33,745 nt of DNA, from NCBI GenBank assembly GCA_016184145.1, contig JACPDF010000012.1, positions 1 through 33,745 on the forward strand, written 5' to 3'. Each line of letters opens with the position of its first letter. Position 1 is the first letter of the stretch. Made by a program: the position numbers and the translations under genes. The stretch is from Candidatus Woesearchaeota archaeon (GTDB taxonomy: Archaea; Nanobdellota; Nanobdellia; Woesearchaeales; GW2011-AR4). The notes under the pieces were generated by a model. The model worked only from the letters and a program-made list of their open reading frames with translations. It had not been told where the DNA came from and did no database searches. Below are positions 25,598 through 32,973 of this stretch, in pieces.

Positions 25598-25775
25598 CCA
25601 CTCCCAGAGGTAGATTTCCTATGGAGATATTTCGTGTTTTATTTTTTGTTGTTGTTTTGTCGTCATTATTTTTTTATTTTATTTTTTCGTTTTATTATTA
25701 ATTATTTTCTATATTGAAAAATAATATATAATAAAACAAAATTATTTTTATTTTTCCATAGGAAGTGGTGGGGTG
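25598..25775. other. Probable replication origin: two inverted ORB-like sites around an AT-rich core
   Basis: The left site (25598-25626) reads on the minus strand CTCCATAGGAAAT... and ends in GGGAGTGG. The right site (25754-25775) reads on the plus strand TTCCATAGGAAGTGGTGGGG and ends TG. Both share TCCATAGGAA, in inverted orientation, with their G-rich ends pointing outward. The ~127 bp between them (25627-25753) is almost only A and T, fitting a DNA unwinding element. The adjacent gene is cdc6. Archaeal origins characteristically have inverted ORBs flanking an AT-rich element next to orc1/cdc6. Prediction only; no skew calculation was possible. Confidence 0.75.
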
Positions 25776-25825
25776 TCTGTTTGCAAAATTATGTTTTTGT
25801 TATTATATAGTAATAAAAACAGTAA

Positions 25826-25836
25826 GATTTAAAAAC
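25826..25836 (+). promoter_or_regulatory. TATA box of the broken TrmB-like gene
   Basis: GATTTAAAAAC centred about 27 nt before the ATG at 25858; leaderless spacing. Confidence 0.5.
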
Positions 25837-25857
25837 ACCGATATATTACTTTACTAT

Positions 25858-26488
25858 ATGTTAGTGGACCAAGAGACTATTAAAAAAATAAAGTCGTTGG
25901 GTTTGAATACCTACGAGGTCAAAATATGGACTGCTTTGCTTTCAAGAGGAGTAAGCACCGCAGGAGAGCTTTCTGACATAGCTAATGTACCAAGATCCAG
26001 ATCATATGATGTTTGTCTTGGAAAATGTCAAGGAGCAGATAGAGAAAAACACAGAAAAGCACATATCACATATCTCTGGCTCTTCTTTTAATAATATGAT
26101 AAATAATCTGCAGGAAGTGTATGAAGGCGCTGTTGGAACCAATGAAGAGGTAGTTGCCGTCCTAAAAGGAAAAAACACACAAAAACATATTAGTTTTTTG
26201 TTCAAAAACACAAAGAAAGAGATTTTGCTCTCATCTTCCAGCGCAAAAGAGCACTTTGATCTTTTGGAAAACATAAAAAATAAACAAAAAAACATTGAGG
26301 TAAGGGTGATTAGCGGCAAAGAACTTTTAGCTGGGAACAAAGGCGCAATACCTAGGGTTTGCATTGTTGATGAAAATGTTGTAATATTCCCTGTTGACGC
26401 AAAAGACACCCATCCTGATTATGATGTTGGCATATGGGTAAAAAACAGGAATATAGCCCGCTTTTTCAAAAAGCTGCTTTCTGATTAA
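25858..26488 (+). pseudogene. TrmB-family transcriptional regulator, frameshifted with missing wing region
   Basis: The first frame encodes a TrmB-type helix-turn-helix (MLVDQETIKKIKSLGLNTYE... VPRSRSYDV, 52 residues, to 26013) and runs on to a stop at 26091 in nonsense. The homologous remainder continues from about 26012 in the +1 frame (FVLENVKEQIEKNTEKHIS ... FFKKLLSD) as the usual coiled coil and effector domain, ending at 26488. Intact relatives normally have about 25-30 more residues (the winged-helix wing) at the join, so the simplest reading is an internal deletion that also shifted the frame, perhaps at a short TTGGAA microhomology. An assembly error is the alternative. The promoter is intact. 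Confidence 0.7.
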
Positions 26489-27172: not shown

Positions 27173-28063
27173 CTATAGGTTAATCTTCATAAAATCTTCT
27201 GCAGTAATGACGTTGTCAAAATAAGTCCTGGCTTCATCTTCAAGGTCGGATGTGTTTTTATAGCGGGCGCTGAAATGAGTCAGTATTAATTGCTTTGCAT
27301 TACTCCTGTTCGCTATTTCCGCGGCCTGTTTTGAGGTCATGTGACCATGTTCAATGCTTTTTTCCTCTAAGTCTGATGCATAGGTTGCTTCTGAGATTAA
27401 AATATCAACATCTTTTGCAAGCTTATATGCTCCTTTGCACGGCACAGTGTCTGTGATAATTGCTACACTCTTTCCTTCTACAAGGCTGGTTGCCTTTTCA
27501 ACATCTATCTTCTTTCCTTTCCACATTATGCTTTTTCCGTCCTGCAATTTACCTAACAAAGGGCCTTCAGGAATGCCGAGCTTTTTTACAAAACCAAGGT
27601 TAATTTTTCTCTTGCCCTTTTCCTCAAACCTGTAGCCCAAAGTCTCTATATTGTGCTCTAATTGCTCTGCCTCAAGAATAAAGTCATCATCCTCAAAAAA
27701 CTTTCCTGATTTTACTTCATTTACTTTTATCTCAAACTTTTGGTCAAAGCCAAAAACCTCAAACATCTTTTCTATAAGCCTTTTTGTCCCTTTCGGGCCG
27801 TATATATTCAATGTTTTATTGCAGCCAGAGGAGCTCATGCTTTGCACCAAGCCAGGAAGGCCAAGAACATGGTCGCCGTGCCAGTGGCTTATCAATATTT
27901 TTGATATTTTTGTTAATTTGATGCCTGCTATCTTAAGCTGCCTTTGCGTCCCTTCCCCACAATCAACTAGAATATTCTCAGAGCCGTAGCTAAGCAAAAT
28001 GCTGCTGTGGTTTCTTTCTTTCGTTGGCACCATAGATGAGGTGCCTAAAAATATTATCTGCAT
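27173..28063 (-). CDS. rnz: Ribonuclease Z (tRNA 3'-end endonuclease)
   Basis: A 296-aa metallo-beta-lactamase-fold enzyme that removes the 3' trailer of tRNA precursors. The zinc motif SHWHGDH (59-65) and the typical N-terminal FLGTSSMVPTKERNHSS (5-21), a late EHGHMTSKQAA, and LTHFSARY are all present. Length fits the short RNase Z form. Its TATA box is about 27 nt upstream, predicting a leaderless mRNA. It is divergent from endA across the second 100-bp repeat copy, so two tRNA-processing enzymes share an intergenic region. Confidence 0.95.
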   Translation of the reverse strand: MQIIFLGTSSMVPTKERNHSSILLSYGSENILVDCGEGTQRQLKIAGIKLTKISKILISHWHGDHVLGLPGLVQSMSSSGCNKTLNIYGPKGTKRLIEKMFEVFGFDQKFEIKVNEVKSGKFFEDDDFILEAEQLEHNIETLGYRFEEKGKRKINLGFVKKLGIPEGPLLGKLQDGKSIMWKGKKIDVEKATSLVEGKSVAIITDTVPCKGAYKLAKDVDILISEATYASDLEEKSIEHGHMTSKQAAEIANRSNAKQLILTHFSARYKNTSDLEDEARTYFDNVITAEDFMKINL

Positions 28064-28152: not shown

Positions 28153-28252
28153 GTTCGCCTTCGGCTCACAAAGTATAGTGAATTGCATGCGAGGAAGCTC
28201 GCATGATCGCTTCCATCTCGAAGCCTCGCTCTCTAACATACGCTCGGCTTCA
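28153..28252. repeat. 100-bp dispersed repeat, copy B
   Basis: Identical to copy A at 18082-18181 and in the same orientation, ending 16 nt before the endA ATG. It keeps the 8-bp GAAG-loop hairpin and the GAAGCC/GGCTTC stem. The bases before it differ between copies, so the shared unit starts here. Part of it can be read through as an upstream in-frame extension of endA, but it is not likely protein-coding. Confidence 0.85.
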
Positions 28253-28268
28253 TTGCTTTCTTCTTGAA

Positions 28269-28847
28269 ATGACAAAAGCAAAGAAAAAGGAAATAGAGAA
28301 GAAAGAAGCAAAGGAAGAAGGCAAAACCATAAGGGCTAATTTTGAGGCAGACAAAGTCCTGACAGAAATATCCAATGAATCAAAGGAGCTTTATGACCAA
28401 AGCAGGTATGGTGCTTTGCTGGAAAACGGAAAAGTGCAGCTTTCTCTTATAGAAGCTTTTTATTTAATGGAAAAAGGCAAGATTGATATTTACAAGAGCA
28501 AGAATAAAAAATTTACACCAGAAGAATTTCTTAGGAAAGCACGGAAATTAGAGTCTAATTTCTGGGTTAAGTTCTGTGTTTTTAAGGATATCAGGAACCG
28601 CGGTTATATAATAAAAACCGCCTTGAAGTTTGGCGCGGATTTCAGGGTTTATGACCGCGGCGTAAAGCCAGGAGAGGATCATGCCCGCTGGGTGGTTTAT
28701 CCTGTTAATGAAGGAAGCACTTTAACATGGCATGAGTTTGCGGCAAAGAACAGGGTAGCACATTCCACCAAAAAAAGACTGTTAATTGGAGTTGTGGATG
28801 AGGAAGGGGATGTTAGCTATTGGGAATGTAGATGGATGAGGCCCTAA
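28269..28847 (+). CDS. endA: tRNA-intron splicing endonuclease
   Basis: A 192-aa enzyme that cuts bulge-helix-bulge motifs in intron-containing tRNA precursors. The catalytic triad is visible: Y128 (FRVYDRG), H138 (GEDHARWVV) and K168 (HSTKKRLL). The N-terminal region (about 25-95) is the typical EndA N-domain. Length fits the homodimer or homotetramer forms. A short basic tip (AKKKEIEKKEAKEE) precedes the fold. The ATG at 28269 is chosen because upstream in-frame codons lie within the dispersed repeat. Confidence 0.93.
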   Translation: MTKAKKKEIEKKEAKEEGKTIRANFEADKVLTEISNESKELYDQSRYGALLENGKVQLSLIEAFYLMEKGKIDIYKSKNKKFTPEEFLRKARKLESNFWVKFCVFKDIRNRGYIIKTALKFGADFRVYDRGVKPGEDHARWVVYPVNEGSTLTWHEFAAKNRVAHSTKKRLLIGVVDEEGDVSYWECRWMRP

Positions 28848-28861
28848 ATTTTCATCAAAAC

Positions 28862-28871
28862 ATATTTAAAA
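28862..28871 (+). promoter_or_regulatory. TATA box of the winged-helix/FEN-1 operon
   Basis: ATATTTAAAA centred about 28 nt before the ATG at 28894; leaderless spacing. Confidence 0.5.
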
Positions 28872-28893: not shown

Positions 28894-29901
28894 ATGACAG
28901 CTAATGATGATATACTAAATCTTGTGAAGCAAAAAGGGCCCATCTTGCCGGCACAAGTGTCGAAGCACATAAAAGACAATATATTAATGACTTCTGCAAG
29001 GCTTTCTGAGCTCCTGTCAAATAAAAAAATAAAGATATCAAGCATCAAGGTTGGTGGCTCGCCATTATACTATGTTGATGGGCAGGAAAGCAAGCTGCAG
29101 AATTATGCTGATAATTTGGGCAGCAAGGAAAAAGAAGCGTATAATCTTCTTAAGGAGAAAAAGGTTCTGAGGGATTCGGCTTTAGAACCGGCAATAAGGG
29201 TGGCTTTAAGGATTATAAAGGATTTTTCCATACCTTTGCAGGTCAATTACGACAACAGGACAGAAGTATTCTGGAAATGGTACCTTGCGCAAAATAATGA
29301 AACACAGGAGATAATAAGGCAAATATTATCAAAAAAGGAAGAAATTGTTCAGCAAAAAATCCAGGCAGAAACACAAAAAAAAGAAATCACCAAGGAAGAT
29401 GCAATTCAAAAAGAAAGCATAGCTAAAAAATATGAAACACAATCAACTACACAAAAGCAAGATACAACAGAAAAACAGGATGAGTTAATTCAAAAAACAG
29501 CAGAAACCACAGCAAAAACAGGAGAGGACACTGCAAAAAAACCAGATATAAAAAGAGAGCAGGCAAAAAAGCCCGGGCAGACTATAGATAAAAATTATTT
29601 ATTAAACAAAACCAGCAATTTTTTTAATAGGAATAAGATAAACAAGATAGACGAAAAAGAAATAAAGAAAAACTCAGAGATGGATTTTATTGTTGAGCTG
29701 GAAACATCGATAGGAAAGGCAAAGTATTTCTGCAAGTCGAAGAACAGGAAGAAGGTAAATGAGTCTGACTTAAGCACGGCCATGATGCAGGCGCAGTCGA
29801 AAGGGCTACCATTGATTTTTGTGACTACTGGAAAGATTTCCAAAAAAGCAAAAGAAATGCTAAACACGGATTTCAAGAACATAATATACAAGGAGATTTG
29901 A
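28894..29901 (+). CDS. Winged-helix protein with C-terminal nuclease-like domain
   Basis: A 335-aa protein, not a family I can name. Residues 1-62 look like a winged helix (PAQVSKHIKDNILMTSARLSELLS). Residues 65-130 hold a second alpha-helical region. Residues 140-230 are low-complexity, rich in Lys, Gln and Thr, and likely a disordered linker. Residues 262-335 (DFIVELETSIGKAKYFCKSK ... DLSTAMMQAQSKGLPLIFVTTG) resemble the restriction-endonuclease fold, with acidic residues around E268/E270 and the CKSK segment in place of the usual ExK. Which residues are catalytic is unclear. The stop (TGA) is followed directly by the FEN-1 ATG, so it probably works with FEN-1 in DNA repair or replication. 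Confidence 0.6.
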   Translation: MTANDDILNLVKQKGPILPAQVSKHIKDNILMTSARLSELLSNKKIKISSIKVGGSPLYYVDGQESKLQNYADNLGSKEKEAYNLLKEKKVLRDSALEPAIRVALRIIKDFSIPLQVNYDNRTEVFWKWYLAQNNETQEIIRQILSKKEEIVQQKIQAETQKKEITKEDAIQKESIAKKYETQSTTQKQDTTEKQDELIQKTAETTAKTGEDTAKKPDIKREQAKKPGQTIDKNYLLNKTSNFFNRNKINKIDEKEIKKNSEMDFIVELETSIGKAKYFCKSKNRKKVNESDLSTAMMQAQSKGLPLIFVTTGKISKKAKEMLNTDFKNIIYKEI

Positions 29902-30933
29902 ATGGGAGTAGCATTTAAAGATCTGGTAATATCAAAAGAAATAGAGCTGGATTTTCTTAAAGACAAGATAATACTTCTTGATGCCTATAATGTGCTGTAC
30001 CAGTTTCTGACTACAATAAGAGGAAGAGACGGAACTTTGCTTATGGATTCTAAAGGCAATGTAACCTCCCATCTTGTCGGCTTGTTTACAAGGACTTCAA
30101 ATCTTATGCAGAGAGGAATAAAGATTGCTTTTGTCTTTGACGGAACGCCTCCGGAATTAAAGCAGAAGACAGCAGAGCAAAGGAATCAGCTTAAGATTGA
30201 AGCAGAGAAAAAATATATGGAAGCAAAAGAGAAGGAAGATGTCGAGGATATGAAAAAATATGCTTCAAGGATGACAAGGCTCACAAAGGATATGGCTGAG
30301 GAGTCAAAAAAACTAGTTGGTTTCTTTGGGCTTCCTGTTGTGCAGGCGCCTTCCGAAGGAGAAGCGCAGGCAGCTTATATGATAAGCAAGAATAAAGGCT
30401 TTGCTGTCGGCAGCCAGGATTTTGATTCTTTGATTCATGGGGCAACAAAGCTTGTAAGGAACCTATCAATAGCAGGAAAAAGAAAAAAAGGGAAGACACT
30501 GAGCTATGAGGCGGTAAAACCAGAGCTGATAGACCTTTCAGAAAACCTTAATATTTTGGGAATAGACCAGAACCAATTAATTGCGTTGGCGATGATAATA
30601 GGAACTGACTATAATCCTGGAGGCATAAAAGGCATAGGCCCAAAGAATGCCTTGAAATTAGTCAAAAAACACAAGACGGATTTTGATGAGATGTTTAAGG
30701 AAGCGAAATGGAACGAGCATTTTGAGTTTCCATGGACAGACATTTATTATTTAATCAAGAAAATGCCTATAACAGATGATTATGAATTAAAATGGAGTAA
30801 TGTTAATGAAGGGCATTTGTATAAGTTATTGGTTGACGAGCACGATTTTTCAGAGGAAAGGGTAAAGTCTGCTCTGGAAAAGTTCAGTAAAGGGAATGTT
30901 AAAAAACAGCAAAAATCGCTTTCTGATTTTTAA
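29902..30933 (+). CDS. fen: Flap endonuclease 1
   Basis: A 343-aa structure-specific nuclease that removes 5' flaps at Okazaki fragments. Acidic metal ligands are all present: D27 (LLDAYN), D80 (FDGTPP), E152 and E154 (PSEGEAQAAY), D173 and D175 (SQDFDS), and D236 (GTDYNPGG, in the helix-hairpin-helix region). The C terminus reads QQKSLSDF and stops one residue short of the usual QxxLxxFF PCNA-binding motif. An AAGGAG ribosome site precedes the ATG by about 6 nt. The upstream partner is coupled, and the Trm5-like gene follows after one base. Confidence 0.96.
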   Translation: MGVAFKDLVISKEIELDFLKDKIILLDAYNVLYQFLTTIRGRDGTLLMDSKGNVTSHLVGLFTRTSNLMQRGIKIAFVFDGTPPELKQKTAEQRNQLKIEAEKKYMEAKEKEDVEDMKKYASRMTRLTKDMAEESKKLVGFFGLPVVQAPSEGEAQAAYMISKNKGFAVGSQDFDSLIHGATKLVRNLSIAGKRKKGKTLSYEAVKPELIDLSENLNILGIDQNQLIALAMIIGTDYNPGGIKGIGPKNALKLVKKHKTDFDEMFKEAKWNEHFEFPWTDIYYLIKKMPITDDYELKWSNVNEGHLYKLLVDEHDFSEERVKSALEKFSKGNVKKQQKSLSDF

Positions 30934-30934
30934 A

Positions 30935-31771
30935 ATGACAAATAAGCTCAGGGATTTGCTAAAAGGAAAATTAACACCGGAAGAGCTTAGTATCATCCCA
31001 TCTTCTTATGATATTGTAGGCTCTATACTAATATTTTCAGATTTTCCAAAGGAACTGGCAAAAAAAGAAAGAATAATAGGAGAAGCCCTATTGAAACTGC
31101 ATAAAAGCATCAAAACAGTCTGCAAAAAAACAAAAAAGTATTCCGGTAAATACAGGCTGCCAAAATTAAAAATAATCACAGGAGAAAAAATAAAAGAAAC
31201 AATCCACAAGGAAAACAACGCAAGATTGAAATTGGATGTTGAAAAAGTATATTTTTCCTCCAGACTAAGCACGGAAAGGAAGAGGATTTTTGAGCAGGTA
31301 AAGAAGAATGAGGATATTTTAGTTATGTTTTCTGGATGCGGTGTTTATCCAATAACAATAGCAAGGAATGCAAATGCAAAAGAGATTTATGGTATTGAAA
31401 TCAATCCAACTGCACATAAATATGCATTGGAGAATCTAAAATTAAATAAAATTGATGGCAAAATAAAATTATTTTTAGGGGATGTTAAGAAGATTTTGCT
31501 GAAAATAAACAAGAAATTTGACAGGATACTGATGCCGCTGCCTAAGGGGGCAGAAAATTACCTGGATTTAGCATTAAGCAAAATAAATAAAAACGGGATA
31601 ATGCATTTTTACACTTTTTCTGAAGAGGGTAAATATGAGCCAATTATAAAAACAATAAAAAAAGAATGTGAAAAACAAGAAAATAAATGTAAAATATTAA
31701 GGATTGTAAAATGCGGGCAGTTTTCTCCTAGAATTAATAGAATATGTGTTGATTTCAGGGTTTACTGGTAA
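30935..31771 (+). CDS. Trm5-family tRNA (guanine-N1) methyltransferase-like protein
   Basis: A 278-aa SAM-dependent methyltransferase. The SAM loop reads MFSGCGVYPI (about 131-140), an acidic motif EINPTAH follows at 155-161, and the active-site region MPLPKGAENYLDLAL (200-214) matches the Trm5 MNLP-type pattern. Trm5 makes m1G37 next to the anticodon and, in archaea, contributes to wyosine formation. The N-terminal domain is shorter than in full-length Trm5 with a D1 domain, closer to the Trm5a/c types; the exact subtype is uncertain. The start is the ATG one nucleotide after the fen stop; an earlier in-frame Met would lie inside the fen end. Confidence 0.82.
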   Translation: MTNKLRDLLKGKLTPEELSIIPSSYDIVGSILIFSDFPKELAKKERIIGEALLKLHKSIKTVCKKTKKYSGKYRLPKLKIITGEKIKETIHKENNARLKLDVEKVYFSSRLSTERKRIFEQVKKNEDILVMFSGCGVYPITIARNANAKEIYGIEINPTAHKYALENLKLNKIDGKIKLFLGDVKKILLKINKKFDRILMPLPKGAENYLDLALSKINKNGIMHFYTFSEEGKYEPIIKTIKKECEKQENKCKILRIVKCGQFSPRINRICVDFRVYW

Positions 31772-31962: not shown

Positions 31963-32973
31963 ATGATTTCAAAAAATAACAATCAAAAAATTGAATCGAA
32001 AGCTGAAAAAATGTGTAAATTAATTGAAGCTAATCCTGATTCAGTATTTAATCTTAGAAAAATTTGTCAGATTTACAATTCTAATACCCTAGATAGAATT
32101 GAACCTCTAAGAGCTAGTACTATTATATCAAGGTTATACCAGAAAGGTAAACTTACAAGAACTAAAACTCAATTGAAAGGAGGATATCTTTATTCTTCAA
32201 ATAATAAGGATAAATTAAATTCTATTTATGACAATTATCTGTTACCTTATGATTTTGAAAATAGAGGGGAAATTATCAAACTCCTAACAAAAAATAAATT
32301 TGAAATTTTAAGAACTGACCAGGAGATTAGTAATCATAAAGATATTAGTGCTTTTTTGGCTATGAACGTTGCTTTCCTTATGTGTGATGGCCATCTCAGA
32401 AAAAATCTTCAACAAATTAATTATTTTTTTAATCAAAAAGATGACGCAGAGTTATTCAAGAAATATTTTTTATCAGTTTTTAATGAAGAAAAGCTTTCGC
32501 TCACTCACCATTCTTCTTGTTTTAGGATAGGTATCTGCAATAAAAGTTTAGCTATGCTATTTAATTCTTTAGGAGTTCCTACTGGAAATAAAGTATACAA
32601 GCCTTTTTTAGTTCCGGAGTGGATTTATTATGGGCCAGACAATATAAAACTGACATTTCTGTCTACTATCTATGGTAATGAAGGTTCAAAGCCTCAAGAT
32701 AATAAATTTAGGATTCAGTTTGTATTATCCAAAACTAAAGACTTTGTTCCAAACTTGCTCGAATTCCTGAATCAAGTAAGGTCAATGCTAAACCATTTTG
32801 GAATATCAACTTCCCATATTCAGCTAAGAAAGCAAAAAGGGAGGGCTTTTTGCGGCAGATTTTATATAAAAGGAAAAGATAATTTGATTAAGTTTTATAA
32901 TGAAATTGGATTTTTGTATGCTTCTGAGAAGCAAGAAGTCTTAGAATCACTAGTTCTAAACGGAAAATCTTAA
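31963..32973 (+). CDS. Free-standing LAGLIDADG homing endonuclease-like protein
   Basis: A 336-aa protein. The N-terminal ~85 residues resemble a helix-turn-helix (ASTIISRLYQKGKLTR). Two degenerate LAGLIDADG motifs follow: AFLMCDGHL (137-145, catalytic-type D142) and TFLSTIYGNEGSK (231-243, catalytic-type E240), about 95 residues apart as expected for a single-chain two-repeat enzyme. Both acidic residues are kept, so cleavage activity is possible, but it could also be a DNA-binding regulator or maturase. It is not inside an intein or a recognised intron. The coding region is AT-rich. No Shine-Dalgarno site is visible; the ATG is the first in frame. Confidence 0.7.
   Translation: MISKNNNQKIESKAEKMCKLIEANPDSVFNLRKICQIYNSNTLDRIEPLRASTIISRLYQKGKLTRTKTQLKGGYLYSSNNKDKLNSIYDNYLLPYDFENRGEIIKLLTKNKFEILRTDQEISNHKDISAFLAMNVAFLMCDGHLRKNLQQINYFFNQKDDAELFKKYFLSVFNEEKLSLTHHSSCFRIGICNKSLAMLFNSLGVPTGNKVYKPFLVPEWIYYGPDNIKLTFLSTIYGNEGSKPQDNKFRIQFVLSKTKDFVPNLLEFLNQVRSMLNHFGISTSHIQLRKQKGRAFCGRFYIKGKDNLIKFYNEIGFLYASEKQEVLESLVLNGKS

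Follow-up and report, generated by a model that had tools for sequence, protein, structure and literature searches.

The window considered here, that is, the whole stretch of DNA that was analysed (33,745 nucleotides), is an entire contig from a host genome of 1.0 Mb belonging to the Woesearchaeales. The gene under study, hereafter called X, is a plus-strand ORF (28894–29901) of 335 aa ending with a TGA stop codon that directly adjoins the fen ATG at 29902; its position immediately before FEN-1, given in a preliminary description of this DNA, is correct. The main features of the locus are the following:

27173–28063, minus strand: RNase Z-like metallo-beta-lactamase gene, divergent from EndA (profile match; cluster c4, present in 59 of 100 loci).
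28203–28847, plus strand: EndA, tRNA-splicing endonuclease, upstream neighbour of X (profile match; linkage counts).
28865–28870, plus strand: TTTAAA, a TATA-like hexamer at position −29 relative to the first codon of X, likely the leaderless promoter of an X-fen unit (hexamer and related loci).
28894–29901, plus strand: gene X, encoding a 335 aa protein with tandem winged helices, a linker, and an apparently inactive PD-(D/E)xK domain (ORF, homologues, AlphaFold2 model).
29902–30933, plus strand: fen, flap endonuclease 1, with its start codon against the stop codon of X (TIGR03674, 409 bits vs. a cut-off of 352).
30896–31771, plus strand: Trm5/Taw-type tRNA methyltransferase gene, downstream neighbour (profile match; cluster c3, present in 63 of 100 loci).

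Upstream of X, the minus strand also carries a gene for the Hjc resolvase, which was considered as a possible relative of X; no kinship between the two was seen. Elsewhere in the window, two overlapping ORFs in different frames (25765–26091 and 25985–26488), the first of which has a partial TrmB domain (profile positions 2–42 of 68), are likely a single TrmB-like regulator gene split by a frameshift; a TrmB gene is found near X in other loci too (cluster c9). Downstream of the methyltransferase gene, a stand-alone ORF (31963–32973) with a LAGLIDADG_3 domain (6.7e-6) is possibly a homing endonuclease.

X is a genuine conserved gene, with homologues in most of the genomes examined. We count it as real because a homologue is found in 53 of 59 relatives and in 221 of 236 phylum genomes, a sample drawn at a completeness limit of 80 and including many members of the window's order. 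In our class sample of 141 genomes, X is present in 111 vs. 136 for fen, and the genomes where it is absent or very divergent belong mainly to two families (f38 and f44); as some lineages devoid of X keep fen, FEN-1 can, as a rule, do without X. A contig scan provided the loci used below, namely the best 80 of 375 relatives, a set skewed toward close relatives, with 78 of the 80 titled Woesearchaeota, Nanoarchaeota, Nanoarchaeia, or simply archaeon. Contigs titled Methanosarcinales and Candidatus Aminicenantes (L062 and L075) carry an X with 41% and 37% identity, respectively, to that of the window; both are probably mislabelled assemblies. Among viruses, 19 pattern matches to X were obtained, none of which was confirmed as a homologue, and a Foldseek search of X against viral models was headed by winged-helix proteins or uncharacterised ones. 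An apparent gene fusion in two loci (L045 and L026) was discarded, the long in-frame extension running antisense through another ORF and looking spurious.

An independent observation concerns FEN itself: in four genomes, a second, short FEN-like gene accompanies the full fen (L142 1020–1910, L145 974–1822, G172:C9, and G184:C6). Those of L142 and L145 code for 296 and 282 aa, the TGA within the L142 match being an ordinary ORF end, and the matches of these second genes omit FEN family positions 82–122, which we take to be roughly the helical arch.

As the preliminary description had it, X cannot be placed in a known family by sequence: neither Pfam nor NCBIfam gives the window protein a match over cut-off, no PDB sequence matches it in a meaningful way, and our literature search found no publication on it. 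An AlphaFold2 model was built from an 80-sequence alignment, made of 79 of the 80 loci plus the window (L065, whose ORF is open at its 5′ end, was left out), and reached a mean pLDDT of 86.7. From N- to C-terminus, it shows a pair of winged helices followed by a long helix, then a disordered linker, and finally a PD-(D/E)xK domain; these parts are listed here with the codons of the putative active site:

28894–29088, plus strand: winged helix 1, residues 1–65 (AlphaFold2, pLDDT 95–98; structure comparison).
29122–29286, plus strand: winged helix 2, residues about 77–131 (AlphaFold2 secondary structure; tandem matches).
29293–29433, plus strand: long helix, residues 134–180 (AlphaFold2).
29440–29580, plus strand: disordered linker, residues 183–229, pLDDT below 50 (AlphaFold2).
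29596–29898, plus strand: C-terminal restriction-endonuclease-like domain, residues 235–335, with a degenerate catalytic motif (models, structure matches, alignment).
29683–29685, plus strand: D264 codon, the probable equivalent of the aspartate in PD (D in 49, E in 30, and another residue in 21 of 100 homologues, including N in 11).
29728–29736, plus strand: F279-C280-K281 codons, at the presumed place of E-x-K in active enzymes (no D or E at 279 in 100 homologues).

The double helix-turn-helix region and the long disordered linker proposed earlier are, thus, both recovered, as two winged-helix units and a low-confidence stretch. Residues 1–65 of the predicted model adopt a winged-helix fold, with many chains aligning about 60 of these residues at an rmsd from 1.1. 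PKZ Zalpha (Z 10.6, rmsd 1.4, 59 aligned) is followed at little distance by MarR/ArsR-type chains, so that winged helix 1, as modelled, is about equally similar to many DNA binders of the Zalpha, MarR, and ArsR types; the Zalpha likeness is one of fold only (profile match with an E of 0.077). SelB and TFIIIC TauB chains align with the tandem of winged helices over residues 1–132 and 1–151, with large rmsd; the tandem also has matches in the Pol III factor RPC62 and an RNA polymerase III initiation-complex chain. All VIA structure matches given here were drawn from the top 1000 Foldseek chains.

The C-terminal segment, previously described as restriction-endonuclease-like from residue 262, does have this fold in the predicted structure but begins earlier, at about residue 235. 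In the full-length model, it runs as a-b-b-b-a-b-a-b from helix 235–246 through strand 330–334; modelled alone, residues 230–335 give a pLDDT of 89.3 and the elements H E E E H E H E, in which the a-b-b-b-a-b core of the PD-(D/E)xK fold is present. The best VIA match among the top 1000 Foldseek chains is EndoMS (5gkj_B; Z 10.7, 94 aligned, 2.8 Å), other matches being NucS (2vld_A, 9.8), AF1548 (9.5), AspBHI (8.8), RPB5 (8.4), and a splicing endonuclease (8.3); Foldseek itself ranks MspJI first (1.0e-4), then AspBHI (3.5e-3). At the profile level, Mrr_cat (PF04471) matches 21 of the 80 C-terminal domains and NA-iREase1 (PF22722), an “inactive restriction endonuclease” family according to Pfam, 14 of them, at E up to 1 in both cases (best 4.8e-5 and 7.9e-5, respectively). 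For the window's own domain, NA-iREase1 is the top profile match (0.0014), and its scores lie under the gathering cut-offs of both NA-iREase1 (19.1 vs. 27 bits) and Mrr_cat (15.0 vs. 21 bits). In another locus (L138, 1474–2922), we observed a gene combining a signal-like N-terminal stretch and, by eye, a likely membrane helix with an Mrr-like C-terminal domain whose motif is seemingly degenerate too.

Having the fold of a nuclease does not make X an active one. The catalytic residues of EndoMS are given in the accessible text of PMC7343888 as D165, E179, and K181; we infer that they correspond to D264, F279, and K281 of X, a register deduced from strand order and spacing. We scored 100 homologues, 80 from the order-heavy alignment and 20 from the rest of the class. 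Position 279 is occupied by Y in 57, F in 35, L in 6, A in 1, and V in 1, so that none of the 100 has D or E at the place of the catalytic glutamate, and K281 is present in 77; the D/E/K triad of NucS/EndoMS is not kept in these homologues. With the (D/E)xK motif disrupted in this way throughout the family, X is very unlikely to be able to cleave DNA, contrary to what its earlier qualification as nuclease-like could suggest, and its C-terminal domain looks, from its sequence, like a pseudo-nuclease. Other positions are retained: an E or D at 262 in 97 of the 100 homologues, K285 in 99 with R in the remaining one, and D292 in all; this retention is compatible with either a rebuilt site or a binding surface.

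The linkage of X and fen was counted separately inside and outside the order. Genomes without a match for either gene of a pair were left out of the denominators, the genomes outside the order are a sample, and a genome in which X is split over two contigs (G122) was counted as unlinked to fen. With these rules, 18 of the 24 Woesearchaeales genomes possessing both genes have X and fen on one strand and at most 1.5 kb apart, vs. none of the 85 such genomes elsewhere in the class. For EndA upstream of X, the same strand and distance limits give 22 of 24 genomes in the order and 35 of 83 outside. Among the 80 loci, fen starts at most 300 nt downstream of X in 65 of the 72 with enough downstream DNA, and EndA ends at most 300 nt upstream in 49 of 71; the 63 loci testable on both sides divide into 37 with both neighbours, 19 with fen only, 6 with EndA only, and 1 with neither. 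Counted over 100 loci, the neighbours are EndA (81), fen (75), the Trm5-like gene (63), and RNase Z (59); outside the order, they include the Hef repair protein. The EndA neighbourhood of X is, thus, wider and probably older, and fen probably joined it in the window's order.

One has to keep in mind that much of the region is a conserved block, so that the adjacency of X and fen taken alone is moderate evidence, and that the ancestral role of X need not involve FEN-1, given the lack of linkage in the 85 genomes elsewhere in the class. The suggestion of a partner in flap processing or repair, therefore, rests on context in one order: it holds up with respect to fen linkage in the Woesearchaeales, well beyond this single genome, and does not extend to the rest of the class, EndA and RNase Z being other neighbours of X. 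FEN-1 is among the archaeal replication genes whose context was studied in PMC2643942, and the terms splicing endonuclease and NucS are absent from the accessible part of that text. A second EndA subunit was also considered and rejected: of 39 relatives, 34 yielded an EndA, in every case only one. In five genomes of family f38 devoid of X (G064, G094, G101, G108, and G120), two short adjacent EndA-like genes replace the one longer EndA and look like a two-subunit splicing endonuclease; we draw no link between this pair and the absence of X, as genomes of f44, mostly devoid of X, have one EndA.

How X and fen are transcribed can be approached through the TATA-like box. A TATA-like hexamer starts between −32 and −25 before X in 54 of 78 loci (the 80 loci without L065 and L093) vs. 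0 to 14 in other intervals of the same length, and a Markov control gave a mean of 6.6 and a maximum of 14 in 200 runs. In loci outside the order, the hexamer precedes X in 13 of 20. Of 56 fen genes lying close behind X, 12 are preceded by it, compared with 10 and 9 for the two intervals closer to the start of fen, hence without a sharp peak. In 51 of 73 loci, X and fen are separated by −5 to 20 nt, and in 27 by exactly 1 nt. Given this leaderless-type promoter in front of X and the usual contact between the two genes, fen is probably transcribed from the X promoter; promoter and gap pattern together probably reflect a leaderless transcript starting at X and running into fen.

Our best reading, to which we give a probability of roughly 0.45, is that X is a non-catalytic nucleic-acid-binding adaptor, near-universal in the phylum, that acts with FEN-1 in the Woesearchaeales; fold, broken motif, spread, linkage, and promoter pattern are computed, and it is from these that we infer binding, partnership, and function. 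The winged helices would bind double-stranded or branched nucleic acid, and the dead nuclease domain, held on its tether, would be a second DNA- or protein-binding module, catalytically inactive nuclease folds serving as binding modules elsewhere. In the Woesearchaeales, X and FEN-1 would be produced from one transcript, and X may help bring FEN-1 to flap substrates or to a replication/repair site; outside the order, X would do the same basic job on DNA (or RNA) without fen co-transcription. A bolder version, which we regard as unlikely, would make X a phylum-specific fork/flap scaffold: a nuclease with an EndoMS/NucS-like fold would have given up its catalytic activity, retained or remodelled its hold on branched DNA, acquired the two winged helices, and, in one order, entered the FEN-1 transcription unit, where it would recruit or gate FEN-1. 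If true, X would be the archaeal counterpart of systems in which a catalytically dead nuclease subunit directs an active one.

Two main rivals have to be weighed against this adaptor. X could instead be part of the EndA and tRNA-maturation block, as a winged-helix RNA-binding factor or an auxiliary of the splicing endonuclease, its co-transcription with fen being incidental. EndA linkage, which exceeds that of fen both in the order (22 vs. 18 of 24) and outside it (35 of 83 vs. 0 of 85), speaks for it, as does the recurrence of RNase Z and the Trm5-like gene near X; SelB is an RNA binder, and its tandem winged helices are among the VIA matches (Z 10.0, but with an rmsd of 7.7). The promoter box that X possesses downstream of EndA in 54 of 78 loci implies, however, that co-transcription with EndA is not required; moreover, fen stays beside X in the 19 loci without adjacent EndA, f44 genomes without X keep a single ordinary EndA, and a repair protein, Hef, is among the neighbours outside the order. 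All in all, we find this explanation rather doubtful.

The other main rival, improbable to a similar degree, places X among the general transcription factors or the chromatin proteins, with its winged helices on promoters or double-stranded DNA and its C-terminal domain as a protein–protein module, as in RPB5. The resemblance of winged helix 1 to MarR/ArsR/Zalpha-type DNA binders, the presence of RPC62, the RNA polymerase III initiation-complex chain, and TFIIIC among the tandem matches, that of RPB5 among the C-terminal ones (Z 8.4), and the near-universality of X in the phylum would all fit such a role, but the Z-scores are middling and non-specific for a common fold, and the window protein has no above-cut-off match to any regulator family. 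The replacement of a missing TFE-alpha (PF02002) by X was rejected: TFE-alpha-type matches exist elsewhere in 53 of 59 relatives, the window's own genome included, so that X is no stand-in for TFE. The least likely alternative is an active nuclease with a rebuilt site, in which the acid at 262, lysines 283/285, and the invariant D292 would replace the lost glutamate: active-site residues have migrated in some restriction enzymes, and the conservation of 262, K285, and D292 exceeds the needs of a decaying domain, but the canonical E is gone in all 100 homologues, 264 is D in 49 and 281 is K in 77 of them, the nearest named family in Pfam, Mrr_cat aside, is inactive, and D292 may merely cap helix 290–303.

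The archaeal phylum concerned is very large and has hardly been cultured, and the tiny genomes of its members contain few dispensable genes; X, an unnamed gene, is found in almost all of the genomes sampled from it. Were X the FEN-1-steering dead nuclease of the adaptor reading, it would be an archaeal pseudo-nuclease guiding an active nuclease and a first handle on flap processing in these reduced organisms; even should the link to FEN-1 prove incidental, the X family can be tested on the basis of its domain model, its conserved residues, and its promoter.

Among known systems, the C-terminal nuclease domain of EndoMS/NucS (PF01939) has the same predicted fold as residues 235–335 of X, with the VIA scores of 10.7 and 9.8 given above, and NucS acts on flapped DNA, as reported in the accessible text of PMC7343888. 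Unlike NucS, X has Y, F, L, A, or V at the glutamate position and winged helices in place of the N-terminal half of NucS. Sequence kinship between the two received no support, an apparent local likeness being lost both in hhalign (probability of 1% over 23 columns) and against a shuffled control (pairwise scores of 27.86 vs. 27.84, with five NucS sequences only). X is no simple substitute for NucS either: NucS has a gene of its own in 31 of 141 genomes, among which are 13 of the 24 from the order, all 24 of which have X. Mrr_cat (PF04471) and NA-iREase1 (PF22722) show weak profile likeness to the C-terminal domains of X, and their partner domains differ. The N-terminal (jaw) domain of RPB5, matched by the C-terminal domain of X at a Z of 8.4, is a non-catalytic member of the PD-(D/E)xK fold; RPB5 differs from X in being an RNA polymerase subunit with another C-terminal domain and no sequence match. 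Finally, MspJI and AspBHI, the best Foldseek matches of the C-terminal domain of X, are active modification-dependent enzymes with an SRA-like DNA-reading domain, and it is in the place of this domain that X carries its tandem winged helices.
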